Below are positions 2,201 to 56,972 of a stretch of DNA of 64,000 bases, piece by piece. Source of the stretch: Sclerodactyla briareus (lineage: Eukaryota; Echinodermata; Holothuroidea; Dendrochirotida; Sclerodactylidae); NCBI GenBank assembly GCA_026419785.1, contig JAODTK010003810.1:62001-126000 (forward strand). Direction: 5' to 3'. Below the pieces are notes generated by a model. It had not been told where the DNA came from, searched no databases, and was given only the letters and a program-made list of their open reading frames with translations. Position numbers and translations under genes: made by a program. Positions within the stretch are counted from its first letter, which is position 1, and each line of letters opens with the position of its first letter.

Positions 2201-2479
2201 GGTTCTCTAGAACCGACGCGAACCGTCCAGGAGTGTATGCGGTTCCATATCCTGGTCCATGACCAACGTTACTTGGACAGTGTCAGATGTGAATTGTGAC
2301 GTGTACGGCTACAGAGTGTACTACACTTCGAGGAATAGCGGAACGTATTTTTCGCGGAGATCGAAGGCGGGATGTCGGCGGAATAACCCTGGAACACTTG
2401 GAAGAAGGTGTCGTCTATGATATAAGTGTTGCTGCTTTACAAACCGATAGAGAACTGCCACAAGTTGGACCAATTTCAG
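2201..2479 (+). CDS. FN3-II exon, unit 0
   Basis: Fibronectin type III module. Acceptor ag at 2199-2200, donor gt at 2480-2481, 279 bases, phase 1 at both ends. The conserved start GFSR, the central VSDVNCDVYGYRVYYTSR and the end AALQTDRELPQVGPIS are all readable, but in different frames: one break lies between about 2225 and 2265 and another near 2340. The length equals the intact FN3-II exon at 11655, so the indels cancel. It carries the single cysteine typical of these FN3 modules. Confidence 0.7.
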
Positions 2480-5400
2480 GTAAAATCGAATTTGAAATTA
2501 TGTACTACCGTTTATGCGTAGGACGGTGTAAAGTGACTTCAAAACCAAACACTTTTCTATTTAGTTCCAGGCAATTGGTGGTTTTCAACCAAAAGAGGGA
2601 ATTTTGGAGGGCAATTCCCAATAACATATTGTATATACGATGAACAATGGATACATTGGCTACTGATGTTTTAATTATCATCTAATTCATCATTTATATA
2701 ATACCGACCAATGGATTGGCCGATTTCGGCTTCAGCGCCGAGATCCTAAAATAGTCGATTTCACCCCTTACCCCCCCCCCCTCCTTCTCCCCGTTGCTAT
2801 GGTAATCTTCACTCCAGACAGACTACCGTTGTCCCTGTGTATCTGCGATGTGATGCTAGTGATTGTCTGTTCATGTTGGTTTCAGTTGCCCTTACGGTTA
2901 TGAGGAGAGTCCTTCGGGGAGCTGCTACTACTTCTCACTGGAGAGGCACATAGGAATGGGCAAGGTCCTCGTGTTTAAGTGACCCAGGTAGCGACCTACT
3001 GATCATCATGACCGGTTGAACTTGACTACCTACTAGAGCGGCTTGGTGACGATGCTACTGCAAGATGGATCGGTGATTAACCTTTACACTATCTTAATAC
3101 TACTCTTTCGATATTAGTTCAACTTCTGAATGATGACGCCATGACATGGCCATACGACTCGAGACGACCAGGTTGAACCCAGGAGGTCAATATTTTTCAC
3201 TTAAACACACCAAGCAAATATGTGAGACTTGGACAAAATATATCGTATTAATGTTAAGATACATCATTTCACAGAATGAGCTGCTTACAGGCAGTTCTCA
3301 CTTAATACTCACTTCGCACTTGATAAGATATCCATATGGCTAGAGAATTATTATCGCGCGTCTATGGACACGGTAAATCTCTAAATAGTTTACAGCCAGG
3401 ATAGCCTTGGAGGATTCTTTGTTTCTACCATTACCTTGCTATGATTGCAGGATATTTCGACAGAGCATCAGAAGGTCAGTGGACATGGGGCGGACTGTCA
3501 ACAATCCACATCATGGCAGATGAGTCTGTGTGGTCTCAGGGTCAAACGATGGATACGACGAAGACTGTGGGGTTCTGGAACCAAACGGGCTTCTGTCAGA
3601 TTATGTCTGTGATCGATACTTCAATTATATCTGTGAATATCCCAGAAAGGTGTGTCTTTGTTCATCAGCCTGTGTGTGTGGGAGGAGGATGGGTACGTGT
3701 AATTATATCCCCGCAACACTGTAAGCAGTAAGTGTTCGGGATATTATGGTTTTGGCCGTGTGCCCGCCGTCTCGCCGCCGCCGCCGCCGGCTCCGCCGCC
3801 GCCGCCGCCGAACTTTAGGCGTTAGCGCCCTCATTCTTTAAAACTTTATCCGATTGACCCAAAACTTGGTACGCCATTGTCCGGATGAGTAAAATCGCGG
3901 ATAAGTTCGAAAATGGGCTATATCGTATATTTGTTGCCTCTATTTTGCAGGTTTTCGCAAATTTTCAAGTTCGTGCGATTTACACGAAACGTGGTGGTTG
4001 TGGGTAGTTGTTGGAGCCGAAAAACATGGCGACAATTCAAGGTCATCCGAGGTCCGTTTGCATTCTTTGCCATAAGCCTAATTTTAGTATAATGTATGTG
4101 ATATTTCAAACTTCATTGGATTTTCATGAACTTGGTGAATAGGGCCAACTATAAGTGCAGATGAATTTTCCCAATGTGGCCGAGGTCACTGGAGGTCATC
4201 TTGCATGACTAATTTGCATAATATTGGCCATTTCGCAATTGGAAATTTATAAACTTTGTTGGATTCTCAGAAACTGGTGAGTAGGACCTTCTAATAGTCC
4301 CGATAAATTTATTCTATTGCGTTGAAATCACTGAAGTTCATTATGTGTGTTTATTACATATTCGTTAGTCCTAATTATAGTAATTAATGCAATTATTTTT
4401 AGTGAAACTTTTAGGGATTTTGACGAAACTTTGTGAATAGGACCTACTACCAGTCCTGATAAAGTTATTCAATAGCATCAAGATCACTGAGGGTAAAATT
4501 TTGGGACTAATTTGCATATTATTGTCCTGATCAGTAAAATTGATGAGTTTAATACTTTTTCGCAATAACATGGACATGTTCATTGGAATGCAATATGCTT
4601 CTAGGAGTGGATGCATCACATGGAGGTGGTAACAATTTTCATAAAAACCGCCATGTCATTGAAGGTCATTAAAGGTCCACTTAGGGGTCAAAAACTGATT
4701 TTAGTACTTTTTCGGCAATAGCACTGGGTGTGTTCATCAGAATGCAAAATGCTCCTAGGAGTGGATGTATCACATGGAGAATAACAATTCTCATAAGAAC
4801 TGTCATATCATTAAAGGTCATTCGGGGTCACTTAGGGTCAAAAACTGTTTTTTGGCTATAATCGGAGAATTGAATATCTGCGAAGGCTGGATGGTTCACC
4901 ATTGTGATGTAATTGTTGACCTGCATGTGTGTGACCTCTGACCTGAATTTGACCTCTGTCGGGTGGCCATGTGGTTAAAGGTCGGATCTTGAATAAATGT
5001 GCTTATTTAAGGGTTTACGGGCAATAAAATAGAAACTAGTTATTTTTGGATATGTGATGGAGCTTTTGTTGCTTTATGGAGGGAACAACTCCCGCTTCGA
5101 TCGGACACTTACTTTGGTAGTTTACAAGGGGCCAAAGTTCAATTTTAATACCTTTTTCGCATAACATTGGACATGTTCATTGGAATGCAATATGCTTCTA
5201 GGAGTGGATGCATCACATGGAGTGTAACAATTTTCATAAAAACCGCCATGTCATTGAAGGTCATTAAGGTCACTTAGGGTCAAAAACTGATTTTAGTACT
5301 TTTTCGGCAATAGCACTGGGTGTGTTCATCAGAATGCAAAATGCTCCTAGGAGTGGATGTATCACATGGAGAATAACAATTCTCATAAGAACTGTCATAT

Positions 5401-8400
5401 CATTAAAGGTCATTCGGGGTCACTTAGGGTCAAAAACTGTTTTTTGGCTATAATCGGAGAATTGAATATCTGCGAAGGCTGGATGGTTCACTATTGTGAT
5501 ATAATTATTGACCTGGCATGTGTGTGACCTCTGACCTGAATTTGACCTCTGTCGGGTGGCCATGTGGTTAAAGGTCGGATCTTGAATAAATGTGCCTCTT
5601 TAAGGCCGCCTTGTCGGGGGCTGTAGGGGGGCCTCATAAAATTAACAAGTGCATTATGGAATGACCCATTCACCTGTAGCACTTGTCGCCTTCACAAGTC
5701 ATAATGTCGCTTTCCCGAATATTGTCGCGGTTCCATGTTCACCAAGATTTCTTGAATAAAGAGTCGGGGATATATACTCTGGCTGTTTAACCCCTCCCGA
5801 CATTTCTATTTACGCTTCGGGAACTACTCGAATCACCACCCAATTAATGGGACAGTGCATTACTATCAATTGGAGATATCAACAGGGGTACACTTGCTCT
5901 TAGACTATGCGAACTAGCATAGGGGGGACGCCACCAAGCCTGTTTAGGAGGTTATCACAGAAAAATGGAAGGTCAGTTAGTCAGTTAAATATCATGAAAA
6001 GAGCAATTGTCAATGGAAAATGATTCGTTTTCAATAAACTGAGTCACATCAGAGACAGATGCCTCACTTTAGACAGTGTGTTCAATGGTCAGGTGTGTGT
6101 GTGCGTGTGTGTGTTGTGTTGTACGTGTGCTTGCGTGCATGTTTGCGTGAATGTATGTAGGTATGTGCGTGTATGTTATAATGTGTATGTATATGGGTGT
6201 GTTGTATCGTACAAAACTGACGACGTTTCCCCACACTGGTACGGTAATCATACATAGACTTATGAATCACCATTGAAGAGGAGGAGAAACAAGCGAATAT
6301 TGCAGTTAACGATGTCATGCTGCTATATTTCGAGGGTCCACCAAGACCCCATCTCAGGCAAATGCGAAGTACATACAAATACAGGTTTAACAAGAGTATA
6401 GCAAACAATGCCAGCTATTCCAGTTAACATTGTTGCCTAAAGCAACCATGGAGATAAACACAGCCTGTATAGAAGGTATAAATACTAAATAGAGGGACTG
6501 GAAATCAGAGAAGCTCAGAGGGTGGCTAAAACAATATTTTAAAAAATCAGGTCCGGCCTTAATTCTTTTATATGTAAACTCTCTCTAATCTCCGCCGTAC
6601 ACACTGCCGGACTCGTTGCCATAACAACACACAATTATCTCCAAAGTTGGCATGCTATGCTAGTGTCATTGCAATGCTGATAAATAACCGTCTGGGTTTA
6701 CGATTCCATTTTATAGTTAATCGCCTAGGGTCACCATTGAACATCAAAGTACGTCTTATAAACGATAATCATTAACGAAAAACTATGAGAAGTACACAAT
6801 CTACGCGCGCGTTCGTGATCCATACCGGTGTTGGAACTAATCTTAATACTTTCACTTCTAGAAAAGAAAATTGCCCCCCTTTCTCAGTTTCAAAGGGGAA
6901 ATTAATTGAACTGTGAAATGAATGGATTTTGTGAAAAGAATCATTCAAATAATCAACGGAGATCAACACAAAAATGTCATCAACATATCTTTGGTAAAAT
7001 TTAAGCTTAGGGCAGATTGACCAACTTATGCTCAAGGTGACACATAAAAAATTTCGCTTAGACAAACACTCGAAGTAATGTACTTGAGTCCCCCATAACA
7101 TTAAATGATCCCCTAGTGTTTTGAGGGTCATGGTCATCTGAGTCATCAAAGTCATCTAAGGTCGAAACTTGTTTACGCCCGGGAGGTCTAAAATGCATAG
7201 GCTTAACCAGGATGAATCTATCTCCGAATTCCTAGGTATCGTATGCCTGTCGAGAAATCACAAGTAATTTTCGATTCTGGTTGAGAGGATCAGTTGGATT
7301 ACATTGCCGAGGCGGATCGGATTCAATGAGACTTAAAGATTGTGATTTTTTCATTCCATTAATTATTTTCTCTCTACTGTAAAGAGGTGTACCAGAGACG
7401 ACACTAACGCACGCGGCGTTTCAGTTGTGAAAAGAAATAGGTGCCTTATCTGTAAGCTGGGAAGTTTCCGATGTAAACTGTGACGTCTATGGCTACACCA
7501 TCCGAGTGACAGATAACACGACACAGGATGTCAAAATTTACTACGCACATGGCGGTTAATACCAACCAACTCTTGTAGCAGACGGACTACAACTAGAAAC
7601 AAACGACAGGTGACGGGTGGCAGGGTTGCCAGATGACAGGCAAACTCCCAGACGTGGTTGTCAAGTGTACTAAGGTTAGTAACATTTATATAACCTCCAA
7701 TAGGCCGTTTTAGCAGGGAGCACAAGAAACGCTGCGCGGAGGATGCTTACATCGATCAATCTTCAGTATGTTTCGCGATAGAGGAACCGTAAATTGTCTT
7801 CGAGCGCGTTTGTCGTAGTTTTCATGACTTCGGCACATGCAATGTTGTCGGATATGAACATTCGTATTCACGGAGACTCGATATACGCACACTACCAATG
7901 TCGGATGAATCCCAAGCATTCCTGCGAACATTCTGCAATGAATACGATATGCATATTTCGCGAATGAGGCACGTTGTGAGACATTCCTCCGATAATCGCC
8001 CATATGTTGAGCAACAAGCCTGTTCGTTGTTGTGAGTGCGCATGCTCACCACTGAACAGTTCGGGGGAATAGACGAGATTCTCCCCATAGCAATATTGTT
8101 ACGGCCTATTTTTAACGGTCAACACGTTTAAAACGCAAACAATTCACCCCATGTTTCCGGAGTTATATGATAAATATGGGGGGGGGGGATCTGTAAAGTT
8201 TCGTGCTGGAAGAATGTGTGAATTTCGGCAGGGTACCTTCGAAAAATTGTTCTGCACACTATAGGTTCATTGTCGAACTGCCATAATGTTCCCTCATGAC
8301 CTTGACACAATATCATTTACATCTCATTGCACTGTAACCGCGAACAGGCTTATCATCTGTGTTCCTTCAGCGTAGTCGTCGATAGGACAATCGGACAAAT

Positions 8401-11400
8401 TTTGCTGTTCGCGCAGAACGTGCGCAAAAACCTTCCACGAGGTGTCGAAATATGTTCCGAGCTTCACGAAGATTTTGCTAATATAACGAACGTCCCGAGA
8501 ACGTCGCGCGCATATGAAGACAAGTAAGACAAGTAATCGCGAGCAAATCGCGAGCAAATCCCGACCCAGAATACGGAAAACGCTCACAAGAAAGTTCGAC
8601 TGGTTGCGGCTCCAACGAATAATTACTGACACTTCCGATTTCTGGCGCATGTTGTCGGGAGTTCAGTCGGAAAAACGAACTCAATTTTCCGACATTCGGA
8701 TTCCCCGGACAACGTTCGCATACCCGGTGGAAACGCCTCTCTATTATATTCTCTTTTCTATGGAATACTTGCCGAGCAGAGAATCGACGAAACCTATTCA
8801 AGGCAGCAGTCGGCCGACCTTGATACTGCACCTATTGCAGCTGCGAAGGTCCCCTCACTCAGATACACGAATAAGGCAAATGCGTCTTTGGCGGTGCCTT
8901 AATCTGTTAATGTGGGGGGGGGGGGGGGGGTAATCACACGGCAACTTGCAAATTGCCTACCCCTCGTTTGTCCCTGCGCCAATCCCTTGTGCTGAGCGTC
9001 CAGCGAGAAGGCAACAGGTACCATTTTTAACGTCTTTGGTATGACCCGGCCGGGTGGGAGGCCGGTGCTCTACCACTGTGTCAACCCCTCGATGCGATCT
9101 CGTTGAGCAATTGTTGTCATTTGTGACCAACAATATTTCAGATGTGCAGATGTTTCCAGTGTTCAGCTCCATTGAACACAATCGATGTAAGGCAATGTCC
9201 GCTATAGTACGACTATAAGTGTTCAAATTCTCGCTCATACCGTATTCCGCCCACATAATGTAACGAAACCTTTGTTACAAGACAATTTCGGATTCACGAG
9301 TATACTGAATATTTTCATGGAGAAAATGCTCGGTCTCAGAGAGGTAGATGTCATGTATACCACTCTCAGTACTAAATGCTGGTTGACTTTCGTATCGAGA
9401 TATACATAACCCTGAAAAAAAATGTGTTGCTGCAAAAATACTGAAAAACTCTCATGATGTTGATAGAGCGGAGAACTTTGGCAGGACAAGGCTTGTGACT
9501 TTGCCAGACTTTTGTCACAAGCCGTCTTGCTCATGTCTTGTATTTCACCTGATCTAAATACTATCATCTCTTCTCAAAGGCTGTCCAAGCGGGTATGAAA
9601 CATCACCGAGTGGCGACTGTTACCTTTTCGTCCAAGAAGAGAGGGCATTCGACGTGGCCAGAAGAATTGTTTATCAAACCCAGTCGGAGACCTCGTAATT
9701 ATTGATTCTCAGCAAGAGCTGGACTATCTTCTGGACACAACATCTGCTTTACTTTCCAATCACAGCTGGTGGATCGGTAAGTTAGCCTGAATTTATGAGA
9801 GCAAAATACGCATTGTCACACTACAAAGTGTTACCTTTGAAATCATTGACCAGATTTCTTCCCCTCTGACGATACCAATAGCCGAACTCGTGACGAATGT
9901 CGAATGACGTCAGTTGGTAGGGACAGATATACAGAGGTAACTATTACTGACGTTTGTTGTTCATCATATTTCGTGACTTATTGGGGCTTGTGGTTCTTCT
10001 TCTAACTTACTAGCGTTGTAAATCAAACCTCCAACCCTTGGTTAAGTAGTAATTTCCTGCAATTCATTTGCCCACTGCATGGCGTGTTGGGCATTGCGAG
10101 ATGAACTCCAGCAAAATATTTCCATCGAACCTGAAATTTTTAAAGCGCTTTGAGCATGTCTTGGGAAAGCGCTATATGATGACGAGGATTCATGGATATT
10201 TGCAACCTGTTTTCGTTGTTTTGTTGCGCACTAGAGATGCCATGATTCTTAACTGGATTGCTTGGGGGCGTCGTTGCTTCGTTGCTGACAGTTGCTATGG
10301 TTAAAATGGTATGGTCACAATTAGATCCTCATATCAACGAATACATAAAATCTGCCATGGCATTGGTCTATGCTCTGCTACAGTAACCTACTGTGTACGC
10401 CGCACCATTGAGCTGCTCGCAAACTTGCAAACATCACAAACTCACAATTTACTGGCCAGCCTTTTTTTTTTGTGACTTATAGATTTATGAAAAAGAAAAT
10501 TAAAATACGCCAAACACTTCGCAGCTTTTTTTTTGTCTTTTTGTCTAGAAGCGATTATTCCTTCCCAACAAACTCCCAAACTTAGATCGGTTTCGACAAT
10601 ACTATCGCGACATTGCGCTGACATATACACACATTTTAGGCTACACTACAGCGATGCAGATGTTGGATTGTTGGTGTCAGTCCCCGATTTTATTCCATTC
10701 AGTCTTGAATGCAGCTGGGTAAAAAATCAGCTGATTTTCATTCTGAAACTGTCAGTTGTTTTACCGTACATTGCCTGGTTGTAGGAAAATCAAAGTCTTC
10801 TTTAAGCTATATCATGCTGATTTATCCTGATGGTTTCAAACTTCTGGGTGTCCATTGTGACGTTATTTACAGAACTCTAGATAATTTTAAGGTGAGTATT
10901 ATAAGCTTGAAAGGCGTTTCCAGTGTTTTTCTAACTTTTTCGATTCATTCAGCATGACACCGTCTATTTACCTCTAATGTGAGTATTTGCGGAATTATAG
11001 ACATAGACCTTGACTACAACCTTGCCAGCCACTCAGAATGACCTAATGTCTCAGTTCTACCGAGCATGATAGGATCTGGTTTTACTATGTTCCTTCATGA
11101 GATGCCATCAGCTGACTACTCGCAACTTCTTCGACAGGTTTCTTTGACATCGCAGTGGAAGGACGATGGACGTGGGCAGACTGTGCAGCTGCCAATGATT
11201 GGCACAACAGTTTGTGGGCGGACGGTGAACCGGGTAATGGATTGGAAGATTGTGGATCTCTCAACAACAACGATGGCAATATCTCGGATAACGTTTGTGA
11301 CAACTTTATGCCTTCATTTGTGAACTATCAAATAAAGGTAATTATTCATATCAACACATTTCCGCTATTTATTGATTATGGCGAGAGTGACATCTCTGAA

Positions 11401-14400
11401 CAGATTAAAATACTGTAGCCAAACTTTTGAAATGGACAACGAGCGACTGGAACTGAATGTTAAGCATTGTCCTATGAACATGATACCCATTGCATGAACC
11501 AAATTTAGACAATCGATGTTAGTATACATTACATGCTGAAATATATTACGTCTCTCCAAAGTGCCTAAATCAACCAATCATAAACATATCAACCATAACA
11601 ATATGAGAGGGTGCATTCTGCCTGTTCGAGCCTGATAACAATTTTTTTCTGCAGAATTCTCCAGAGATGAGGCTAACGTTCAAAATGTAGCAGCTGGTCT
11701 AATATCACAAACAACAATGATCGTCACTTGGGAGGTATCGAGAGTAAACTTTGATGTCATTGGCTACAACATCTATTATACACCGAGGACTACTGGGATT
11801 CGTCAGGTGGAAACTGTATACGGGGGAGATGCGGACAGGATAACTTTAACAGGTCTGGAAGCATGGGTTATTTACGACGTAGGTGTTGGCCGCTCTACAT
11901 ACAGTAGGGAATTATCACGCTTTCTAATTCCAGGTAAGCGATCGGGAGCTAGTTAACATTAAACCCCATGATACCGAGTCGATGGGTCCAACCATAGTCA
12001 TTTTCTAGACAAAGAAGTATACCAATTTGGGTTTTTTGTGCGAAGTTCGTTGTGTGTGTGTGTGTTTGTGTATGTGTGTGAGTGTGGCGCATCGGAAAGC
12101 GATGTAGGGTATGGCAATTCAATAACTCGACAGCTGCAAACTTGCAAACTCAATAGCCACGTGATCAATGTTTCTCATACCTAAAGTGTGTACGTGTATG
12201 ATTTTTCTTCTGTGGAAGTGACGTTTCATTTGGGGTCACCATGTGCCAAGAAAAGTTTTAGGGTAGGGGCACAATAGAAAGTTTCGATCGGCTGTATGCA
12301 CATGTGACCATCTGACTTTTAACTTGTTGCATTTCCGGACGAGGGATTGTTTTGTGCGGACTCCACTACGTTCCGAGCAATCAAATTGAAATAACTTAAA
12401 GTGGATGGAATTGTCCGAGTGGTTGGCACAGTCGTGATGAAGTGTCGGCTTCCACCAGGGAGTCAGGGTTCGATACCTGGTCGGGTCATACCAAAGAATA
12501 AAAATGGTAGGTACATGTTTCCTCTCACTGGGCGCCATGCACACATTAAGGTACCAGGCATCGCCTAATCCGCGTAACTGGTGAAGGATTCACAGCAGAC
12601 AAAACGTGCAGCTTGCCCGGCCTTGAATAGGTTCGATTCTCTGCTCGGCAAGTATATCCCCAAAAAATGTAATGTTGGCCCTTAGCCATGGGTTCGGGTT
12701 GATACATGCAATGTCGGCGAAAAAACGCATGGGGTCCCTTGTATACCCTTGTCAAAACGTGAATGGTGTTCAATAACAGTCGTTTCAATATGTTCAGTGT
12801 CTCCGAGAATAGGGTGTGAGTTGGTATTACTCCATTCGGTTGTTATTATTTACATTGTAGTGTGTCCCTACCTCTATGACAAAAGTCCTAAAGACAACTG
12901 CTACTTCTTCTCTCGTGGAACTAATACCTATGAAGGGGCAAGGAAATCCTGTTTGTCAGATCCTGATGGTGATCTCGTGATAATAAGCGACCAAGAGGAA
13001 TACAATTATCTGCTGAAAGACAGTCAATGATGCCATTCCTAGGTGGATTGGTGAGTATATGAGTTTGAATATTTCCAATGCTCTTCAATTGAGCAGGTCA
13101 ATGCTGCCATATAGCTTGCTATTAGTTGACTTGCAAGTACATCACGATGTCCAAGGTAGCTTCTTCCAGCTCATCAAAGAGCCAATTCATGGTGGAACTC
13201 CAAGGTTATAGTGATGATATGGTGCCAGATGCTACCGAAATGTACCCGCAGACATTTGAAGTTGATTTTGAAGGACAAGTGCGGGCTTAGATGCAACGGT
13301 ATATCGTGAGAATGGGAACTGTATCTATATTTCCAAACCCCATTTCAATTTCTATGTTGTCTTTATTCACCAAAGTAACCATCGACACCTACCAACCCAC
13401 TACAGCAATCCTCTCCCTTAGACTTAATGCTTTTCGAAGTAAAATAAATGTGTTGAATTCAATTTTCAATGGAAAACAAAGATTGTTAGCAGGGGTATTG
13501 TGCGAGTTTATGAATCATCATATTGCATGATGGATTGCTCTGCGCAATCCACATTTTCCTTTTCACATACGTTTTTTTCTCATATATATCCTTTAATATT
13601 TCCCCCCGGTGTTCTTATCTCCAATCACTCGAGCAAATCTGACTAATGTCTGCAACTGAGAGCGTTAGAGTGTCCATTGCCAAGCGACTGTTTTGGTTAT
13701 AATATCGATAACCATAGGACATATGGCCCAGACTGAGTTGCAAAGCAGTTAATGTCAGCTAAGCTCCAGTAACGTAATATTCATTCGCAGATTGAGTTGT
13801 AAACATGTCATTTTACTATACACTGAAACGCTAGGAATAGCACCCGTATTCTTGCATTTTGTGCGGAAAGAACCAGCGTATGAATAAAGAGATGCTTCTA
13901 AACTTTTTCAAGTAGTAATAGTAAGACTCAGAGATAGGGCAGCAAAAAAAATGTATATTTGGATGATATGTACGTCTTACCTTTGTTAGGCTACTTTGAT
14001 AGAGCTACAGAAGGGAGCTGGACATGGGCTGACTGTGAAAACTCTGGCCCGTGGCAAGAGTCACTGTGGGCAGTCGGAGAGCCAACTGGTTATGAAGAGG
14101 ATTGCGGTGCTTTGGATCCGAGCGATCATATTTCGGATTACGTGTGTGATCAAAACTTCAGATACATCTGCGAATATCACCGAAAGGTAAGTAAAATGAT
14201 CATTATTTTCAAACACGTTACAAATTGAATCGGGTGAGAAGTGGTCACATGGCGTCGATTGAAACGAGCTTTCAGGGACAAAGTAATACGTTTGACGCGA
14301 GTAAGACGCGAGCAGTTTCACGAATGAACAACAAATTTGACACTCAGGGTTGGTTGACTAAATGTTGGTTCTGGAAATCATTGAAGTATCGCTGAAGTGA

Positions 14401-26400: not shown

Positions 26401-26476
26401 GCTTGCGTTCTTTAGAATAGATATCGTGCTGACGAGGGGTTCCACACACACACAACACACACACACACACACACAC

Positions 26477-26518
<42 letters not shown>

Positions 26519-29500: not shown

Positions 29501-30188
29501 TTCCTACGGTGTTCGGTCTTTCAGTATATTTGCTTCTCTTCACTGGAATGCTCTTCCCGTCCCTCTCTTCAAGTCAAGGCTGAAAGCAAACCTCTTCAAA
29601 CAGGCTTCTCGTGATCTGTAGTTTTTTTCTTTCTTCTGTGTCAAGCGCTTTAGATCGTTGCTCTTTGTATTTAGCGCTATATAAATGCACCATTTTACTA
29701 TTTTATTAATATTATTATTATTTTGCTCCCTGGTGTCGAATAAACTGTAAACTTACGAAGAATGTAGTTCTCTGGTAGCTTCCTAACTAGTGCGATGTCA
29801 GTTAAAGACTACTGTGAACGTTGAGTATCTGCTACTTTTACATCAACAGGATTTTCCAGGGACGAAGCTAATGTACGGAACGTGGCTGGTGTCCCTGTAT
29901 CGGAGACATAGATCACGTTTTCTTGGGAGGTATCTCCATTAGCTGTGACGTATTAGGGTATAACGGTACTAACGCCTAGGACCAGCGGTATAAGATACGT
30001 GAGCACGGTGTATGGTGCGGACGTCACGGTAACGACCCTGACAGATTTAGAAGCATATGTAATCTACGATATTAGTGTTGCTGCTCTACAACTTGACAGG
30101 GAAATGCCAGAGATCGGCCCCATAACAGGTAGGAAAACGTTTACATATGCATGTTCACGTGTGTAGAGGAAATCAAATGCACTTATAA

Positions 30189-30229
<41 letters not shown>

Positions 30230-36200: not shown

Positions 36201-39200
36201 TGCGCCTGCCTGTCATCACCTATACGGCGTGCATAATAGATGGACCAGCAAGAGCTGCTGAGCTGGACCGCAAGACGATGAAAACGATGAACGTTACTGT
36301 GGACTACCCCACGACCTGACGTGCACCGGCTGTATCCTCCCCGAAGGAACGGAGGGTTGCCGTACTCCAGGAATAACTCCAGCAAACGGACAGAGACCCA
36401 CTGATAGAGGCTCTGTGCCGAATGAGTTGCTCACGGGTAATAAACGAAGGAAGGAGACGAGGCCGATTGGCAGAAAGAGTGTATGGACAACAGGCAGCAG
36501 AACGCTAACACGGACAATACAGACGGCAGGTCCCAGATATACGTCATATACAGAACGCCTATCGAGAATGCAATCAAGCTCCTAGTACAGGCTCCAGTTA
36601 GAGACAGAGGCCTGCTAACTTCCCAAGATCAGGCCCTGAACACCAAGTATCACCAGCGAAAGTCACCCGCATCCGAGTGCCACTAAATTTCGCATGTGCC
36701 ACCAGACGACGAAACTGTGCTCATATAACAACGGCCTTCTGGAAGATCGCCGGAAGTCTGTATATAACAAGGCATAACAACGTAGCCGCCGCACTACATC
36801 ACGGGATATGTCAGCACAACGGATCCAGACTGAAAGTGACAACCGTGGCTCCACAATCCTACAACCAACGGAGGGAAACGAGAAGGCCAAGATCCCTCTT
36901 GGCCTTCGAGGTGCGAACAAACAGAGTAATCAGCGCACGGAAACCAACCTGTTAGTAGTGGACAAGCCACGAACGACACCGCCATAATCGACGTCGCAAT
37001 ACCGAACGACACCCCCATATTTTAGAAGAAAGAGAAAAAAGTGGAGAAAGACCAGACCTGCGGCTGGAGATTCAGAGGTAGTGGGACACCAATGCCAGAG
37101 GTTTATACCGTGGTGATCGGGGGCACTGGGAGCATATCCACAATTCGATGGCCCCCTATAGAGATCCTGGACCCACTAAGTACGCCCCCTAACAAGACAG
37201 CACTACTTGGCATTGCCCAATATACTCAGACGGGTGCTCGACCTCCTAGAGTCCTGTTAGGACCCCGACGTCTGAGGGACAGACATTACAGTACAACCGT
37301 GAGGACGTTGTGGAAGAACAACACACCAACCAATAATGATAATATTAATAATAATAAATAAGAACCACAACAACAATAATAATAAAATAATAATAATAAT
37401 AACAATATCGAGAGTCATGCATTACACGTCTACACATCGATCTATTCAACATCTTCGGGCCGAATCAAGACACTCGTGGTTGAAAATGCTATGAATACTA
37501 TAGCAACCATGTGATCACCTTTCTCCATATCAAAAGCGTATTGGAGCAGTTTCAATTCTTTCACAACTGGGTGCTAACAAAAGATACTGTAATGGCGGTC
37601 ATGGCTTGAATGGTTAGAATCTGTTTTGAATTAAATGTATCATCAATAATGTTGAATGTTATGAAGCACCCCCTCCCCCCATGTCAAGAAGAAACTTCTA
37701 ACCTGCTTCTTCGTAAGCATTTCTTCATTACGATCTCTCTCCATCAGTTTTAAACTCGGTTTACCATTGGTATATTTCTTATTCACACGAGTCATCGAGG
37801 GTCTGTTTTCGTGTCCTATCTATAACGCTCTACAGAAGACGACGACTCGCACACGAGATCAAGGTAGCAACAAGTGAATGGCTGCGATCATAACCTCATT
37901 CAACACGAGTCCCGAATATGAAAACAGGCATTCGGCATTATTATGCCGAACATCATTCCAGGGCCGAATCGAAAATCACTTGACCCCAGTATGAACATTT
38001 CCCTATATCTATCATATACTATCTCTCATTGCTCATCTCTCAACTCATTCTTTCCTATGGCTATGAGATGAGTCCTGCTGAGAATCTACCGCTTCGTTTT
38101 CGATGGAAGTACCTATCAGCGGGCCGAGTCTATCTGCCTCCAGTACCCCGAGAGCGACCTCGTTATCATCAACGACCAAGAGGAACTGGAGTACCTACTT
38201 GAGAGGACATCGAAGGGAGCGCCAGTGGTGGATGGTAATTATGTTCAACAGGGATAATACCAGGCTGAGCAGTTAGTGGCAGAGCTGAAGTCGTTTTTCT
38301 CTCGACTAACAAAATTGGCCCGAATTTTATTTGTATTCCTCAAACGCTATAACAAAAAATATTTGCACTTCTATTTCGGGTCATCCGTTGAAAAAAAATT
38401 AAAAAAGTTTGGGGGAGGCCGCTCCCAGCAAGCAATTCTGGCAATAATAATATTCTTATATTTATGGTGCAGTTCTGCATTTGGACCTTCTGCATGCAAG
38501 AAACTATATGCAGCTGAGAACGTTAGTGAATCCTATCACATTCATTGCCCCGAGTAGTAAGTGCTTGCTTATTCAGTAAGTGATTGTGAATTAGTTCAGT
38601 GGACCGCTAATCAACCCCAGCTGCCTGTTGGTTCGAGGACATTAGATTATGCACGAAGTATCTATCCATACTATCTACCTAAACTGAGACCTGTCAGTTG
38701 TCCTTTTCGGGGTGGTCGTTTGTCCCACTTTGTGAAATTGAAGGAAACCATTCTGCTGTAGCAGTGCAACTAAAGATTGTTTCATATTGGAAATACTATT
38801 GATATACGATACTACAGTTATGTTACTTCAACCCTCCTGGGCAACAGATAGCAACATATTTTCCACTCTTACTTCACGTTATTTCGACAGAGCTACCGAA
38901 GGCGTATGGACTTGGCAGACTGCAGAACCCGATACTTGGCAGGAACAGCAAATGGGTAGTGTGAAAAAAAAAAAAAACCCGACAGGCAGGCGAAGATTGT
39001 GGAGCTCTGGAGGCTGACGGGTCCTTTTCGGATTACGTTTGTGATCAGTATTTCCGATACATTTTTTAATATCGCCGAAGGGTGAGTGTGTATACCGATA
39101 TAACGTTTTTGAGAAGAAAAAATGGTGCAACCAATCCCCCCCCCCCCGTGAAGTCTATGTAGACGAATCAAGTAGGGTTTTACGCTCACATTATGCAATG

Positions 39201-42200
39201 GTATTTTTCAGTTTACTGGCTTGTTTCATTGGCTCTTCGAATTAAGCTGAGCATCGCGCACAAAGGTAATTATGTTAGTACTACGAATACATTGCGCAAT
39301 ATTCGATGAGAATCGATAATGTACTGGTTATGTATTGTAAGTGATAATATTCTCATAGACACTTCGCTTCCTTTATAACTCCATCTCACACACAGTTTAT
39401 TCGGCCGTGACGGTAATTATGAGAGTATAACTGAATCACACCCCTGTGATAAATGCTCTATTAGTGGTCACCCTTATGTCGCCGTGTTCAAATTACGCAA
39501 TCGTTACCTGGAATCACTATATTTATGAATGCGGAATGAATATATTATTAGAAAGATTATATAATCAGGATGACCACAATAACATAGATAACGTTTTCAT
39601 AAGGATTCTCGAGAGATGACGCCACGCTATGGAGTCACAGCTTCTCCTAGGTCAACAACCTCTGTTACCGTTAGTTGGGAGGTCTCTGATGTAGGTTGTG
39701 ACGTATATGGCTATACTATCCGTGTTACTGATATCCCCACGCAATCCCTCGAGGTATACTACGCGCACGGTGGGGCAACCAGTACCCTGGGTGCCGTCGG
39801 ACTACAACCAGATACCATATATCAAGTGACAGTTGCTGGTCTACAGATCGACAGGCAACTCCCAGAAGTCGGCTTCGTCAATGTCACAACAGGTAGATAG
39901 CACAGGGACCCTCATTTTCGCATTTAAAATGCAACATATTGACGCCATAATTTGAATTTGACAATACCGACAATTTTCTCGATTCTAACGTTTAGCTTCT
40001 GATTTCCATGTAGTAACTGTGCGATACTTTAAATCGTCATTTTCGACTGTATCTTTCGAGTGACATTCGAGCAATATCTAAATAGTCTAAGGAGCAAGAG
40101 AATCGATCGCTTAACATTAGACACAAGCATAATGAAAGTTAGGTAGGAAAAGTGTAATAGCAGATTAGAACTTACCACCAAGTAGAACAGATATGTGAAC
40201 ATAAAAAGACGAAATATCAGAACAATGCAGACGAGCAACACATTGAAGAAAGTGTTTGGTCCATTAATCTCAGTTGTCCAGTGGGCTCCCAAGAATTCCT
40301 GGCAGCTGTTACCGCTTCTTAGAGGACGCACGAGTGTTCGACTCCGGCAGAAGAGCATGTATGGTCCTTACCCTGACAGTGATCTCGCTATTATCGACAC
40401 ACCAGACGAACTAGAGTTCCTTGTGGGAGAAACGTCGATGAGATCGCCAGACCAAATGTGGTGGATAGGTACATATCGATGAAGATACTATGGGGGTCGC
40501 GTGGTGAATAAGTCCAAACCCGTGTGTTACATCATCGAGTTGTTTTTATGCACTGAAATATTCCGGAATGTTCAATAACATTCCGATATGCCAAGCAAGT
40601 CCAGCGGTCCACGTGTCACTAGTATGCATACAACTCGCGCTCAAGAGGATTTATTTGGCGTTTTCTCAGTGTTGGGTATCATCCTTATCCTGAAATGTCT
40701 CGTTCCATAGGTTTCTTTGACATTTCCGTGGAGGGCAGCTGGACGTGGGCTGATTGTCAGGCGGCCAATGACTGGCACCAACCTTATGGGCAAGAGCGAA
40801 CCGGTAACGGTAACGAGGATTGCGGGGCTCTCAATAACAGCGACGGTACCCTGTCGGATAATATCTGCGACATCTTCTTACCAGTCATTTGTGAGATAAC
40901 TCAAAAAGTAGAAGAGAAAAAGAAAAGAAACTCTACTTCATTTTTATCCTTTTGGTCTTAATAAAAGTTGAAAAGTCCATTTGACATTCATTTTGGGTAG
41001 ACTAATTAATGACTGAGCAATACGAATTGATTGGCCTAGCTAGTGCTAGGCCATTCAATCGCGAGATTGGGTAATGAATAGCCCCTGTAGAATATGTGCG
41101 TGATGGTACCCTCCTGAAGAGAATACCCTCTTCATGATGTGTAGGTGCATTTTCACTGAAATGAAAACCTCTGCGTAATGACATTCATTGAATAAATACG
41201 GAAACGGAATATATCATTGCTAGGTTTTTCCAGAGATGAAGCCAATGTCGCAAATGTGGTTGCTACCCCGACATCGAACAGAGAAGCCATGTCACATGGG
41301 AAGTGTCTGAAGTCAGCTGTGATGTGTTCGGTTACAACGTCTACTACACCCTCAGAGCCAATGGTGTGCGATCTGTTAAAACCGTGTTCGGCGGAGATAC
41401 CAATAATACGACTATAGCAGGTCGCACCGTCGGTGCGATCTATGATGTGACTGTTGCCGCTCTACAAACAGACCGCGGATACTACCCAAAGTTGCGACAT
41501 GTGTCATGTAAGGGATATATCAGTTCACGTATCATGGAATATGAACTGATGTTTTTTTGTTGAGGAATTCGGGACGAAGCTGTGTGCATGGTCAACCGCT
41601 CTTAGGTATTTGTTCTGTATGCTGATGGAAGCGCCAGATAGTTGATTCTCTATTCAGATGCTTAATAACAAAACAAAGTGACTGAGACGAATGTGACTGA
41701 GAGAAGTAAGATTGCAATTGTCGCGCAAGTAGCCCATCTGCGCTCTAACTCGCCTTGCCAGAATTATGGTTCAGTGACGTTAATATGTCCACGCGGGTTC
41801 CTAACCGTTCAAAGCGATTCTGTAGTGCTAATATTTTCATATATCAGCGGCGTGGCAGCGTTCCCTATGTATTTCTAGAAGCAAATACACATCAATGATT
41901 ATGACATAGTATTCAATGTCTGAACACAGCTATTCATTGCATGATTACAGTGCAACAAAAGTTCTAACATTCGATAATAAAATGGTAAAAGATAATGGTA
42001 TATGTCACTCGGGAATTTTATTCCGGTTCTTCATAGTCTGTCCATATAGTTACGTGGAGAGTCCATCAGGCGGTTGCTACTTCTTCTCTACGGACGCGAC
42101 AACCTATCAGTATGCGAGGTCCTTCCTGTCTGACGGCCCGGACGGTGACCTGTGACCCATTGACGACCAGGAGGAACTCGATTTCCTGTTGGACAGAGTA

Positions 42201-45200
42201 TCCGGAGAGGATGACTATAGCTGGGTCGGTGAGTAATATTTACTAATGGCTGGAAGTTTCTGAGACAACGGAGCACCGTGGTGGTTGCTAACGCTTGCTC
42301 TAATCATAGGATTTCAGAAACCAGATGTGTTATGAAAAGAACCTACGCAACAAAATTCATTAGACAGAATATCCTTTCCTATATAGTAGCACCATGACCT
42401 ATGAGAAGGTGGTTTTAGCCAAAGAAGGTCAAAGAAAGCTCTACGACATTCGTATTTCGCCTTCTTGGTTACATAAATACTACTTCACATCGCTTCTCGC
42501 GAAACTTTTATCTATCGTGGATCTTTTCCTTAGATGGGCCGTAACGGGCCGTTACATTAACCCTCCGATCACGGGGACTGTTCTGAGCTGGTTTAAATTC
42601 TTTTCTTTAACCAACGCCTTGGGGTGTTCCACAAAAAGCCGATTCTCGGTCCTGCTCTTTTTCGTAATGCCCCTTTCTTCGGATCGCAGTTCATATTGGA
42701 AGTGAAATAGGTCTATACGCCCAGCTATATTTCAACTCCATTTCAAAACATTCCATAATGTTGGCGTATCTCGAGGAAGACACCCCGTCCAAGTTTGGGA
42801 ATTGAATTAGATTTTAGGTACCCAATCAAACTGAATAATGATTAGACAAAAGTGATAAGAACATTGATGACCAATTACTTAGTTGATGTTAATGACACTA
42901 GGTGATAAAACGGTGAATCCTCAATACAAGACGCCAACATCGGCATTCATATTGATAAGCATACATGGATCAAACAAGTGAATTCAGATTTGTGGGACGA
43001 TTATCCACTTCCGCCAGCGCAGGGGTCGAGTTGAGAAATAAGTCTACCGTGATAAAACTGCAACTAGATGGGTTTTATAAGTGTAGTTCTCTTGCGCACG
43101 GCGTGAATCCTTCATTCGAAGAGCTAAATTAATACCTTTTTCACTCCGATAGAGTAACGATAACCACTGGCTGCTCATTGACGCCCGCGTGTTAAGTATA
43201 TGTGTATTGAATGAGAGTGGGGTTACGATGAGACATGGAGCTACAGGTTAGACAGAGCCGATTTTTTTATTAAAAAAGATTGGACGATAATTTCCTGTCA
43301 TATGGCACTATAGGTTAGTGTATATAGAGCCATCATGTTTTACATTATATCTATAGCATTACTACTCTCAAAACTCTCAATATATGTTTTTTCTCTTGTG
43401 ACATTCATTGTCGATTATTGAAATCCCTTCCAGGTATACGAGAAGGTATGTTGATTGATTATGTTCCTCTAGGGACCATAAGAGCAAAACAACACACCAC
43501 CTTCTCTGAGTATGAAGACGGCCAAAATACAATCGGACAGTCGTCCGAGAGCTCGGATAATAACATGATCCATGATCACACCTCACAGGTTCTGTTCTCG
43601 AAATGAATTGTTCCAACGCTAAAAGTCGAAAATATTAGTCTCCTGCAATTCGTTTCTTTGTTATAAACAATTGGCGCCATTTCTCCGTTTTTAGGTGTTA
43701 TTTTGATAGAGCCTTGAAGAAGGGACATGGACATGGACAGACTGCCATGAACTACTGATCCCTGGCAGAGTTGCTCTTGGGCCGCTGGAGACCAACTAGG
43801 GTTATATGAAGACTGTGGTGTTCTGGACCGTAATGGCAGCTGTCCTGACTTCGTTTGTGATCAGTATTACAACTACATCGGTGCGAAATATCACCTAAGG
43901 GTAACCCCCGCTTTCCGATTACGTTCGGTGAAGGATGCATTATTGGTAATCCCCAAATAGCAGGAAGGAAACGTTTCCGAAATTTGTAATCAGTGCCTCA
44001 TATAGATATGTTTTATATGTTATCGGATGCAATGAACATCTCGGTTCTCTTTCATTCAGCCTCATGTCCAAAACATTATGTTTATGAATAACAGTCGTTT
44101 CCAAATTTAGATCATTGAAAGAAACATTGTCGTGCTAGATAAATAGCCAGTGGTCATCCCAGAACATCTTAGCAAAGCAGCATAACATCAGTTAGAGCAA
44201 TTGTGCATGCTTGTGTTAAGAGACACTAAAAAAGATGTTCCAACAAGACACCTAAGATAAGTTCTAAGTATACTACCCTCGAAAAGATTATCTGCTTCCA
44301 CTGGTTCGAGATGATTACCAAAGTAAAACATTCTTATTTTGACAACAGCAATTTAGCTGTAACATTTAGATAAATCCCTAAGGTTTACCCCACCATGAAG
44401 ATTTGGCCTTGTTGTACATACGCCATATTTCTGCCTTCTGCAGGATTCTCACGAGATGACGCCAATGCGGACGGTTGGCGTCTCATTTCCACCAGTGAGT
44501 GAAATGTCACAGGACCACCTCGGCGGTGAATTGTGATGTGTTGGATACACCATCAGGCTGACTAATTAATCAGTGGAGAGAGAGGGTATCACTACCGCAT
44601 GGTGATAAACACAGATCAATCACCATCGGGGACTCCAGCCAGGGTCCACACATCTGGTCACGGTTTCGGACTTCAGATCGAGAGGAGCTACCTGAAACGG
44701 TTTCGTCAATTCACACAACAGGTATGACATGTAACATATCGCCAATACGAACGTTCCCAACTTCAACATGAAAAAATGCAACATGCATCGACTCCTTGTT
44801 TCATCTCATTGACAGACCAGTTACTGGTGACATTTTGGTTCCGGATATCCGCGAAGCAGAAGCACAGGGCAGCAACCTATATATCTACCGTAGCGAACGT
44901 ACGGTAATTATATTGAATTTGGATACTGTATTCAACGGTCCATGCTAGCTATTACTCTTGTTTCCGCCTGAAATGTTCCCGTTCAGCCATGGATCCTTTT
45001 TTCCCTGTAAGATTGGTTTGCCAAGATGGTTTCTTGTATTAATCATACAACACTCGTGAAGAATCAAAATCCCGGATGAATGACGCCGTAGAAGTTACAC
45101 AGTGGATGCCAGTCCGGAGGATGTGACATTTCATGCCTTTCTTCGAATCCGCATATTGCCCAGGACGAGGAGACAGCATCCATTGGAGGCTGTTACTATT

Positions 45201-48200
45201 TTGCTCCTCGGAGGCTAGTAACCACCTGGACTTCTGGAGATGGATTGTCCGAACAGAGCAGGAGGCGATGTCGTCATGATCGACAATCAGAGGAATTGGC
45301 TATCTTTGTCGACTGCCGCAACAACTCGGTTAGGGGTGAATTCTGTCTGGATCGGTGAGACCTGTCTTTCATATAACAAATATTTACTCAGATATACCAA
45401 TAATATTGACAGAACATTTCCCGTCCCACCCTGTCCACAGAATGATCCACCGGCTTTTTGGCTTTGAAAACATTTTGGAGGTTAATTGTAATTTCGTGTA
45501 GGTCTCCTTGGTGATAACTAAGTTAAACTTGTGATCATGGCAACTAATATATCGACGTTCTAGTGTTCTCCTATTATAACTTCTTGTGGCGTATCCCCTG
45601 TGCTGGGGAGGTTATCCGTCAAGATATTGCAATAAGTACTCGGGGGGTTCCCGTTTTCGAGACTACCTATGCCTTGCTAGATTGGCGCATGGTAGATTTT
45701 TGGTTGACTGACGCAAGGTTTGAGCATATTATATAGATTTCCACGCGTGCTAATTGAGGCACTGTTTTACGGTATCTACCCGGATTCGCTTTGGACGGGT
45801 TTGTGAGGGTCCGAATATAAACTAGGGTCGGTTCACTACCGCTTTTGTTAACAGTAATTTTCGTATACAACTGGAATGATTCACGTTCGATATTTCCCCG
45901 GTGCTTAGGATATTTCGATTTCAGCGTGGAAGTCTATTGGCGTTGGGCGACATGCGAGACCTCCACACCGTGGCAGGAAAGTCCTATGGGCCCCGAACGA
46001 GCCGGCAATGGAAGAAGAAGACTCAGTATATGAACTCATCAACTGGTCAAAGAATACAAGTATTTTGATCGAAAAAGATTCCAGTCGTGTGGGAGTACCA
46101 TCCTAAAGGCTTTGGTATGGACGACGCCAATGTGAACAAGTATCGCCGCACTGTCGGTTAGGCACTATAATCTCGTTAAATGGGCGGTTCACGGGTCGGA
46201 TGTGACGTCATTGTTTTCGGATCCTATACTACTAGCCGGAGTCAGAGCCACAAAGAAGGTTCAGTTTTCCCAGAATTACATGTAACCTTCCAATTGCTTG
46301 GAATTCACGTCGATATCAAAGTCATTGATTGTCCTTCGTCCTATAGCGAATTGATTTCACTTACACTGGTATTCTGTGTCGCATGTATGTTCAATATCCA
46401 CCTCGTTCATACTGAGGATAATGCCACGGATGCATTGTGCTATTCTGCTGCATGAAGGGTCGCAGCTGGAAATACAATAAGTGAATTAGTAATACACTTT
46501 TGTATTAGGGTCTTGAAGATTTCTAGTCGGCAAGTAGTAAGAGATACAAAAGTTACAGGGGATTTTAAATGAAACTAGAAAATGTGGGAGGGTAAAAACC
46601 CGCAGACTGTATATATCCCCGCTCTCTATTCAAGAAATGTGGTGACATGAAACTGGACAATATTCGTAGAAGAAGACATTATAGGACTTGTGAAAGCGAC
46701 AAGGGGGTACAGGGTAAATGGGGTCCTCCAGCATTGAAACGGAAGGGCAAACATAGACATGATATTTTAGGCCCACAATCGTTTTTCATCATTGCTCAAT
46801 CAATTTTACTCAAGAAGGACTTTCTTGTGTGATTCTCATTCTACTGATCAAACAGTACTATTTGTTTTGCATTGAAAATAGTATATACAACATCCAAAGG
46901 TCTCATAAATTGGATAATATAGGGTACTGTAAGGGGACACAAAAGTATTAAAATAAAATCAACCCCAACCACAAGCGTTTTTTAATTTGTTTTATGAATT
47001 GATCGATATTTTGTCAATTTCTGACAGATATGAACAAAGTCTTATAATGGTAGTTTCAGATGTTTTTTTTTTTAGGGCCATAAGAAGCCATACATAGGCC
47101 TATAATGCACTTGTTACGTGTATGAGGCAACCCCTACAGCCCGACAAGTGCGTCCTTAAATAAGCAAAATTTATCAAGATTCGGACCTTTAACCACATGA
47201 CCAAGACAGAGGTAAAATTCAGGTCAGAGGTCAAACACTGCAGGTCACAATTAATTCACAATGGTGAACCATCCAGCCTTTGCAGATATTCAGTTCTTCC
47301 GACTAGAAAAACATTTTTTGACCCTACGTGAATCGAATGACCTTCATTATGATATGACAGTTTATTGCGAATTGTTACTCTCCATGGTGATACATCCACT
47401 CTAGAAGCATATTGCATTCTGATGAGCATACCCAGTGCTATGCCGAAAAAAAAGTAAAAATAAGTTTTTTGACCCTAAGTGACATTTATTTATTTGTTAT
47501 TTTTATCTGTTGCAGTATGACCTGGCGGGATTTTGATGAAATTGTTACATCCATGTGATGCATGCCCCGCCCTAGAAGCATATTGCATTCCAATGAACAT
47601 GTTCAATGTTATTGCGACAAAGGTATAAAACTGAACTTTGACCCTTGTAACTACCAAAGTATATGTCCGATCGAAGCGGAGTTGTGTCCCTCCATAAAGC
47701 ACACAAACCCATCAATATCCAAAAATCACAACCAAGTTCTATTTTTTTGCCCGTAACGCCTTAAATAAGAACACATTTTATTCAAGATAGCCCGTAACCA
47801 AATGACCCCGACAGAGGTCAAATTTCAGGTCAGAGGTTAAACACAGGCGGTCAACACTTATATCACAATGTGTGAACCATCCAGCCTTCGCAATATTCAT
47901 ATTCTCCGATTAGATCAACAAAAAACAGTTTTGACCCCTAATGTGACCCCGAATGACCTTTAATGATATGGACAGTTGTTTATGAGAATTGTTACTCTCC
48001 AGTGATACATCCACGCCTCGGAGCATTTTGCATTTGATGAACACCCAGTGCTATTGCCGGGGAAAGTACTAAATCAGTTGTTTACCTCTAAGTGACCTTT
48101 AATGACCTTCAAGGCATGCGGTTTTATGAAATTGTTCCACTCTATGTGATGCATCCACTCTAGAAAAGCAATTGCATTCCAATTAATATGTTCAATGTTA

Positions 48201-56905: not shown

Positions 56906-56910
56906 GCGAG

Positions 56911-56972
56911 GGGAGGGGGGGGGGGGGGGGGGGGGGGGGAGAGTCGTCAAGGGGGGGGGGGTGGGGGGGGCG
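56911..56972. repeat. Long G-rich homopolymer tract
   Basis: Nearly 60 bases with several G runs longer than 8. Strong candidate for misassembly or length error. Confidence 0.9.

Follow-up and report, generated by a model that had tools for sequence, protein, structure and literature searches.

We analysed a 64,000-nucleotide stretch of DNA from the holothuroid Sclerodactyla briareus (the window) and found a tandem array in which FN3 and CTLD domains alternate. We think that the array belongs to a single large animal gene (with a probability of roughly 70%), which would encode a secreted or membrane-bound FN3-CTLD chain and would have grown as blocks of phase-1 exons were duplicated in tandem. 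The domains, their order, the exon phases, the split into subtypes, and an exon crossing the junction between two units can be read directly from the DNA; we infer that a single transcript crosses the array.

As the initial annotation had proposed, we scanned the window with profiles for six exon classes. These were frameshift-tolerant and were run on both strands with a threshold of 55. The scan found 43 exons in order on the + strand and none on the - strand. The exons scored 58.5-418.7, while the maxima for the six profiles on four random 64-kb strands (order-2 Markov) were 32.0-42.0. The order of exons is FN3a, CTLDa (2 exons), FN3b, CTLDb (2 exons), and there are seven such units (U0 to U6), followed by a terminal FN3 (in U7). 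In total, the window contains 15 FN3 domains (the last is partial) and 14 CTLDs, with 3,192 aligned residues. Going by the best-scoring class, the expected order holds at 42 of the 43 positions. The sole exception is 45908-46110, in the slot of CTLDb exon 2, which scored 122 as CTLDa exon 2 and 106.5 as CTLDb exon 2. The class is weakly assigned in two other exons: 38047-38212 (116.3 vs. 110.5) and 45157-45356 (69.0 vs. 57.2). The initial annotation described a strict alternation of two FN3 and two CTLD subtypes, with over a dozen CTLDs and one FN3 between neighbors, and this array is confirmed as real.

All eight exons that had been assigned to the FN3-II subtype correspond to our FN3a exons, whose starts (Table 1; the last is at 46111) are each 2 bases away. 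Successive starts are 9454, 5824, 5928, 6443, 5583, 5791, and 4885 bp apart. The last of these values is below the spacing of about 5.6 to 6.4 kb that was described for all but the first interval. The first interval was thought to be enlarged by insertions, and a repeat element in an intron (at about 3710-5805) explains at least part of it. Introns of different units cannot be aligned (there is one 22-bp match only, with E = 0.005), so a dot-plot would give exon dots instead of continuous lines.

Table 1. Exons of the array and repeat elements in the window.
Feature	Position	Strand	Details
U0 FN3a exon	2203..2481	+	profile score 201; AG acceptor and GT donor in phase 1
U0 CTLDa, exons 2887-3074 and 3450-3649	2887..3649	+	scores 175, 250
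Repeat element, U0 CTLDa-FN3b intron	3710..5805	+	identity of its two longest segments to 47102-49295 (other strand), 82-83%
U0 FN3b exon	7391..7658	+	score 240
U0 CTLDb, exons 9579-9778 and 11137-11339	9579..11339	+	scores 224, 317; exon 2 nearest that of U1, 79.0%
Unit 1: FN3a 11657, CTLDa 12860 and 13989, FN3b 14772, CTLDb 15591 and 16180	11657..16383	+	scores 206-346
Unit 2: FN3a 17481, CTLDa 18341 and 19885, FN3b 20436, CTLDb 21161 and 22977	17481..23180	+	scores 259-419
Unit 3: FN3a 23409, CTLDa 24405 and 25490, FN3b 26651, CTLDb 27361 and 28213	23409..28415	+	scores 247-415
Unit 4: FN3a 29852, CTLDa 31407 and 32177, FN3b 33219, CTLDb 33792 and 34667	29852..34862	+	scores 160-347
Unit 5: FN3a 35435 (9 frameshifts), CTLDa 38047 and 38880, FN3b 39606, CTLDb 40272 and 40710	35435..40907	+	scores 116-391
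Unit 6: FN3a 41226, CTLDa 42036 and 43699, FN3b 44446, CTLDb 45157 and 45908	41226..46110	+	scores 69-310
Fused exon: U6 CTLD exon 2 and first half of U7 FN3a	45908..46242	+	adjacent in-frame matches, 122 and 58.5
Possible second half of U7 FN3a	49455..49596	+	profile columns 45-91, score 36.7, within null range (match 49440-49598)
Inverted copy of repeat element, downstream end of array	46580..49295	-	similarity to 3710..5805

The three FN3 exons that we submitted to Pfam all matched fn3 above the cut-off (34.7, 31.4, and 28.8 bits vs. 25), with E values from 1.4e-6 to 2.1e-8 (the latter for U2 FN3b, 20436-20726). The CTLDb of U2, spliced from its two intact exons, matched Lectin_C with E = 7.2e-15 (56.1 bits vs. 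a cut-off of 22.6). Among six CTLD exons submitted singly, three were above the Lectin_C cut-off, two matched below it, and one did not match. When we compared four pieces with NCBIfam, the sole notable match was of the CTLD to a polycystin model (33.8 bits against a cut-off of 1861.4, E = 3.2e-9); we read it as the shared CTLD.

The CTLDs have seven conserved cysteines and the FN3s have one. We take six of the CTLD columns to be C0, C0', C1, C2, C3, and C4 of long-form CTLDs. In both CTLD types, each of these columns is a cysteine in 6 or 7 of the 7 units. U6 CTLDb lacks C2, C3, and C4 (three of its seven conserved cysteines), and U5 CTLDa lacks C0 and C4, with C0' unread. The classical motifs for calcium-dependent sugar binding by CTLDs are EPN or QPD, plus WND. 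WND is present in none of the 14 CTLDs, with its aspartate retained in 12 of them. EPN was read in 0/14 (the third residue is unread in U5 CTLDb), and so was QPD, which is still possible in U0 CTLDa (it reads Q-unread-D). The classical combination of EPN or QPD together with WND was not found in the array, and sugar binding by these CTLDs is at most a possibility, as is the immune role raised in the initial annotation.

In phylogenetic trees, the a and b types separate with support of 100/99 for FN3 and 80/100 for CTLD. (We excluded the U7 FN3a from the FN3 tree and from the closest-pair bootstraps.) This separation supports the proposal that an FN3-CTLD pair duplicated and diverged before the block multiplied. 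It had also been proposed that the resulting pair of pairs was amplified as a block. Multiplication did follow the a/b split, but amplification as a block is a simplification, as the nearest copies of other units vary from exon to exon. Also, the youngest block duplication is, going by DNA identity and not by the protein trees, out of register with the cassette, with its breakpoint in the intron inside CTLDb. Exon 2 of U0 CTLDb is closest to exon 2 of U1 CTLDb (79.0% identity). The protein trees give poor backing to a pairing of U1 with U2 (65/47 for FN3b, and their FN3a domains are not sisters), and in the joined CTLDb tree, U2 groups with U5 (88/80). In U6, FN3b and CTLDb are strongly divergent, and CTLDb is a long branch (2.15). 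We suggest that the a and b types arose when an FN3-CTLD pair was duplicated and its copies diverged, that the a-b double pair then multiplied as tandem blocks of phase-1 exons, and that at least one later event cut at a phase-1 intron inside a CTLD.

The array exons have symmetrical phase-1 borders, like exon-shuffling modules. The acceptor AG is in exact phase 1 for 35 of the 43 exons (including the fused U7 FN3a, whose AG does not serve in splicing), and so is the donor GT for 30 of the 43. For the off-phase remainder, an AG lies within three bases in 5/8 acceptors and a GT in 12/13 donors. This test is lenient, and random sequence would often pass it; there is no AG within three bases at acceptors 38047, 38880, and 45157.

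That the units are joined in one gene, as the long protein first suggested would require, is probable. The gaps between units are 317, 1097, 228, 1436, 572, 318, and 0 bp (median 318), as compared to a median of 593 bp for the 35 introns within units; the difference is not significant (two-sided P = 0.12; one-sided P = 0.94 for longer gaps). At the six unit borders that have an intron, FN3a has an exact phase-1 AG acceptor in all six cases, and CTLDb has an exact GT donor in five. The remaining junction lies inside one exon: between 46110 and 46111, the CTLD reads in frame into the FN3 of the next unit, with no intron (there are frameshifts elsewhere in both parts). Since the gaps between units are no longer than the introns within them, and given the in-frame junction exon, the units likely belong to one large gene. 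No start, end, signal peptide, or membrane segment was identified for this gene.

Could the array instead consist of separate FN3-CTLD genes in a tandem cluster, each covering a single unit or a few units? We consider this very unlikely. There is a precedent, as a lancelet gene model that joined Lectin_C to fn2 was split into two genes by ESTs (PMC4967905), and gene models of loci of this kind easily go wrong when they lack support from transcripts or polished sequence (PMC4967905). But gaps as short as 228, 317, and 318 bp, the absence of any gap at U6/U7, and the in-phase acceptors (6/6) and donors (5/6) at the unit borders all argue for joined units. Also, a comparison of open reading frames (at least 25 amino acids, E of 1e-6) showed little beyond three exon classes (including in other frames): the other pairs were the repeat element and one oppositely oriented pair, although short exons could escape this comparison. 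It is far less probable still that misassembly stitched related genes together. If the indels described below are errors, then the assembly is rough, but homologous exons are 39-79% identical across units, which is too different for them to be confused as copies, and every unit has introns of its own.

The more serious concern is that the reading frame is often broken. Across 9570 exon nt, we counted 97 indels that break the frame, along with 5 in-frame stops, none of which the initial annotation mentions; the number of indels varies with the alignment penalties (11657-11914 is fully open, yet its best alignment places two compensating shifts). Just 6 of the 43 exons are free of both frameshifts and stops, including the last three exons of unit 2 (FN3b and both exons of CTLDb), and 37 have one or the other. 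If the indels are real, the array would be decaying, and the gene would by now be a pseudogene, either throughout or at least at its ends. Consistent with this, frameshifts are denser in units 0, 5, and 6 (1.27, 1.65, and 1.55 per 100 nt) than in units 2-3 (0.44-0.51). Also, the link to homopolymers is unclear: 44 of the 97 indels (45%) are near a run of at least 3, compared to a background of 36%, so this hallmark of sequencing error is weak here. (This excess is too weak to use as evidence that the indels arose at homopolymers.) However, between units, the median pS is 0.79 and the median pN is 0.26, and pN exceeds pS in 0 of 133 exon pairs. This includes pairs without any frameshift, such as FN3b from U2 and U3 (pS 0.82, pN 0.16) or CTLDa exon 2 from U1 and U4 (pS 0.86, pN 0.14). 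At the level of sequence, these values demonstrate old duplications under purifying selection. As a rule, each indel is accompanied by several substitutions under neutral decay, but nonsense changes are few (5) relative to the 97 indels, and the splice borders are largely retained. A loss that was recent enough to leave such a pS/pN signal should not already carry about 100 indels. We therefore consider decay to be unlikely, and because of the high pS relative to pN, we infer that the indels are mostly errors of an unpolished assembly.

Beyond the fused exon, the candidate second half of U7 FN3a is bounded by an AG and a phase-1 GT, and the intron before it would be about 3.2 kb. When we searched for a target-site duplication of the repeat element at 46.6-49.3 kb, there was no shared word above 8 bp between 46201-46700 and 49151-49480, so we do not claim that the element inserted cleanly into the exon; it is equally probable that this FN3 has an intron. 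Rescanning the flanks for further array exons with a threshold of 34 gave, besides 49440-49598, two matches, both at chance level. Pfam matches to the 142 flank ORFs of at least 52 amino acids were to seven families, with one member each and E from 0.016 to 0.037. There were no tRNAs (ARAGORN, bacterial code) and no Rfam families at the gathering score in the window. In a collection of viral contigs, FN3b (26 pattern matches) and CTLD exon 2 (30) had no confirmed relatives. Neither did FN3b (23 pattern matches) in bacterial and archaeal contigs, where a relative of an animal gene is hardly expected.

The mannose receptor family (group VI: macrophage mannose receptor, DEC-205, Endo180, and PLA2R) likewise has many CTLDs per chain, and its members are the best matches of the array CTLD among solved structures (Endo180, 9.2e-14; DEC-205, 1.2e-12; macrophage mannose receptor, 6.5e-12). 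To our knowledge, the CTLDs in this family are consecutive, with no FN3 between them, whereas in the array, all neighboring CTLDs are separated by one FN3. Group VI proteins also carry ricin-type and FN2 domains at the N-terminus and have a transmembrane segment; none of the 142 flank ORFs had an FN2 or ricin-type Pfam match. Extracellular proteins with FN3 repeats of the fibronectin type share the FN3 domains, and FN3b has its best match in the PDB with fibronectin (7.8e-8), but we know of no interleaved CTLDs in fibronectin. In the literature that we searched, which left out preprints and most subscription journals, we found no description of a long FN3-CTLD alternation. The nearest is the predicted vertebrate protein CFN3 from Fugu, which combines both domains as the array does; it is listed in a table as "Protein with CTLD and FN3 domains" (PMC514892), and beyond that we claim neither kinship nor difference. 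Fugu DEC205-FUSE is also predicted to have many CTLDs (5 plus 10 in about 2000 residues, with 7 in the second group in a later assembly); it lacks cDNA support, and its authors argued for it from the small introns and the well-conserved CTLDs (PMC514892). Unlike the array, it has LCCL and FA58C in the middle, and the passages describing it do not mention FN3 spacers (PMC514892).

We also considered a quite unlikely elaboration, in which each FN3-CTLD pair would be a disulfide-locked module and the chain a stiff ladder of alternating binding heads. The FN3 cysteine (in NCDV) would pair with the seventh, otherwise unpaired cysteine (in WADC) of a neighboring CTLD. Phase-1 exons would allow domains to be skipped or reshuffled without loss of frame, so the number and order of heads might change, either through splicing in the body or, from one generation to the next, through recombination at introns, including those within a CTLD. 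U1 FN3a lacks the conserved cysteine, yet the U1 CTLD retains WADC.

If the array is part of one large gene, then the FN3 domains may act as spacers, with the CTLDs displayed along an extended chain, and we suggest that the chain is used for avidity binding of repeated ligands, in adhesion or in the recognition of microbes. The product is probably a many-handed recognition or adhesion molecule, and if it is a single protein, this lectin-like chain would be strikingly multivalent. The growth of a repeat protein is also recorded at this locus: by subtype first, by block next, and then by duplication out of register with the domains.

We built six profiles, one per exon class and each from two or three window peptides, and scanned both strands with them by dynamic programming that tolerates frameshifts, at a score threshold of 55. 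Across the whole window, this gave 43 non-overlapping exons on the forward strand and none on the reverse strand. In four random 64-kb strands from an order-2 Markov model trained on the window, the best scores of the six profiles were 32.0–42.0. The exons run in the order FN3a, CTLDa exon 1, CTLDa exon 2, FN3b, CTLDb exon 1, CTLDb exon 2 (a and b being two subtypes of each domain) seven times (units U0–U6), and the array closes with an eighth FN3a (U7). The initial annotation had proposed a strict alternation of these six classes; the best-scoring class agrees with it at 42 of the 43 exons, and all eight of the proposed FN3a positions are within 2 bases of our profile-scan starts. The exception is CTLDb exon 2 of U6, which scores 122 as type a and 106.5 as type b. 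Two other exons are typed weakly by their profile scores.

All three FN3 exons that we submitted were above the Pfam cut-off for fn3 (1.4e-6 to 2.1e-8), and fibronectin is the nearest solved structure to FN3b. Two intact exons, spliced together into a single CTLD, matched Lectin_C at 7.2e-15, and the nearest solved structures to this CTLD are from the mannose receptor family. Among six single CTLD exons, three were above the Lectin_C cut-off, two were below it, and one had no match. The intron within every CTLD lies in the WIG motif; some fish CTLD genes have an intron downstream of WIGL (PMC514892).

An acceptor AG is in exact phase at 35 of the 43 exons (counting the fused FN3a of U7, whose AG is not a splice site), as is a donor GT at 30. 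Most of the other borders have the dinucleotide within 3 bases (5 of 8 acceptors and 12 of 13 donors), a pattern expected from one-base losses or gains and from alignments that stop short, but a test this loose is often passed by chance. All of the exact borders are in phase 1, so each domain, and each half of a CTLD, is a symmetrical module.

Are the units joined? Six unit borders contain an intron; all six have an exact FN3a acceptor and five have an exact CTLDb donor. The seven inter-unit gaps (317, 1097, 228, 1436, 572, 318, and 0 bp) are not longer than the 35 introns within units (medians 318 and 593 bp; one-sided P for longer = 0.94), and a gap of 228 bp leaves little room for one gene to end and for the next to have its promoter and first exon. 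At 46110/46111, the genome itself joins two units within one exon: the CTLD reading ...EYHPKG passes in frame, without an intron, into FGMDDANV..., in agreement with the spliced junction in other units (...PKG/FSRDEANV). The FN3 part of this exon scores 58.5, versus null maxima of 32.0–38.2 for the FN3a profile.

This eighth FN3 breaks off at profile column 45. Because the score of its candidate second half is within the null range, only position and borders argue for it: there is an AG acceptor just inside the match and a phase-1 GT after it at 49597. An inverted pair of repeat elements (2.1–2.7 kb) flanks most of the array; the two longest segments common to both copies are 82.9% and 81.9% identical.

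Features in and around the exon array
Feature	Coordinates	Strand	Remarks
Repeat element	3710-5805	+	In the CTLDa-FN3b intron of U0; enlarges the first unit
Repeat element, inverted copy	46580-49295	-	Between the two U7 FN3a halves
Internal duplication of first element copy (~590 bp)	4685-4923, 5277-5515		99% identical
Candidate second half of U7 FN3a	49440-49580		Weak match, columns 45-91; exon from 49455; score 36.7, within null range
Most frameshifted FN3 exons	44446-44723, 35435-35708	+	8 and 9 events
Minisatellite	57289-57546		22/43-bp unit
Poly-G stretch	56910-56984		Near the minisatellite
GTAT array	57740-57856		Near the minisatellite
Long CA and TAT microsatellites	26443-26535, 30189-30264, 61892-61988		In introns and flank

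The exons (9570 nt) contain 97 frame-breaking events (65 net deletions and 32 net insertions), a count that varies with the alignment penalties chosen, and 5 stops; just 6 of the 43 have neither. Frame breaks per 100 nt are 1.27, 0.74, 0.51, 0.44, 0.89, 1.65, and 1.55 in units 0 to 6. Between units, the six classes differ by 0.23–0.37 at first, 0.22–0.33 at second, and 0.53–0.63 at third codon positions. Across 133 exon pairs, the median synonymous-type difference (pS) is 0.79 (0.40–1.02) and the median nonsynonymous-type difference (pN) is 0.26 (0.08–0.54), and pN never exceeds pS. The highest pN values (0.40–0.54) are from pairs with U7, with CTLDb of U6, and, once, with FN3b of U6. Introns compared across units have only one 22-bp match in common. 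The duplications are old and the exons have been maintained by selection, which makes old pseudogenes unlikely, so most of the frame-breaking indels read as assembly errors. The weak association of indels with homopolymers counts against assembly errors, and real decay in some units is possible. The two most frameshifted FN3 exons keep exact phase at both borders (44446) or at the acceptor (35435), which makes decay hard to separate from sequencing error there.

Trees of 14 FN3 rows (without U7) and 14 CTLD rows separate a from b (support 100/99 and 80/100), with CTLDb of U6 as a long branch. An FN3-CTLD pair thus duplicated before the block did, as initially proposed. The accompanying proposal, amplification as a block, holds in part. 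Five exon classes tie U1 to U2 in the youngest block event (FN3a 77.2%, CTLDa exon 1 75.7%, CTLDa exon 2 74.5%, FN3b 79.3%, and CTLDb exon 1 71.6% identity), while CTLDb exon 2 ties U0 to U1 (79.0%, versus 65.7% for U1-U2), with no reversal in 1000 column bootstraps. U1-U2 exceeds U0-U1 in all bootstraps for FN3a, CTLDa exon 1, and FN3b, in 92% for CTLDa exon 2 (whose closest pair overall is U3-U4), and in 90% for CTLDb exon 1. Protein trees give little support for pairing U1 with U2. We infer that the youngest duplication copied a stretch beginning at one CTLDb exon 2 and finishing at the CTLDb exon 1 that follows, and that the breakpoint falls in the CTLDb-internal intron and not between cassettes. 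The remaining units have no single pattern of relationship.

We found no description of a long FN3-CTLD alternation in the literature searched, a collection with no preprints and only a minority of subscription journals. PMC514892 lists Fugu CFN3 as combining CTLD with FN3 domains in one protein. In the accessible parts of PMC10140915, PMC11797021, PMC12373286, and PMC8242945, diverse CTLD architectures are described, and this alternation is not among them; a figure legend in PMC8242945 mentions CTL as well as FN3 in naming the domains of the drawing. The accessible part of PMC11788884 lists other domain pairs. As a cautionary case, a lancelet Lectin_C-fn2 gene model turned out to be two genes (PMC4967905).

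Neither WND nor EPN is read in any of the 14 CTLDs, the D of WND is retained in 12, QPD may be present in CTLDa of U0, and in six of the seven b-type CTLDs, EP precedes G, S, or A. With these readings, the CTLDs may or may not bind sugar. The FN3s share one conserved cysteine (13/15; one of the others has F and one is unread). The CTLDs have seven conserved cysteine columns, and the seventh, in WADC, is found in 14/14; in contrast, both of the CTLDs of Endo180 that we aligned have another residue there. FN3a of U1 lacks its cysteine while its CTLD retains WADC, which argues against a strict bonding rule. Because both numbers of conserved cysteines are odd, the sequences suggest a bond between neighbouring domains.
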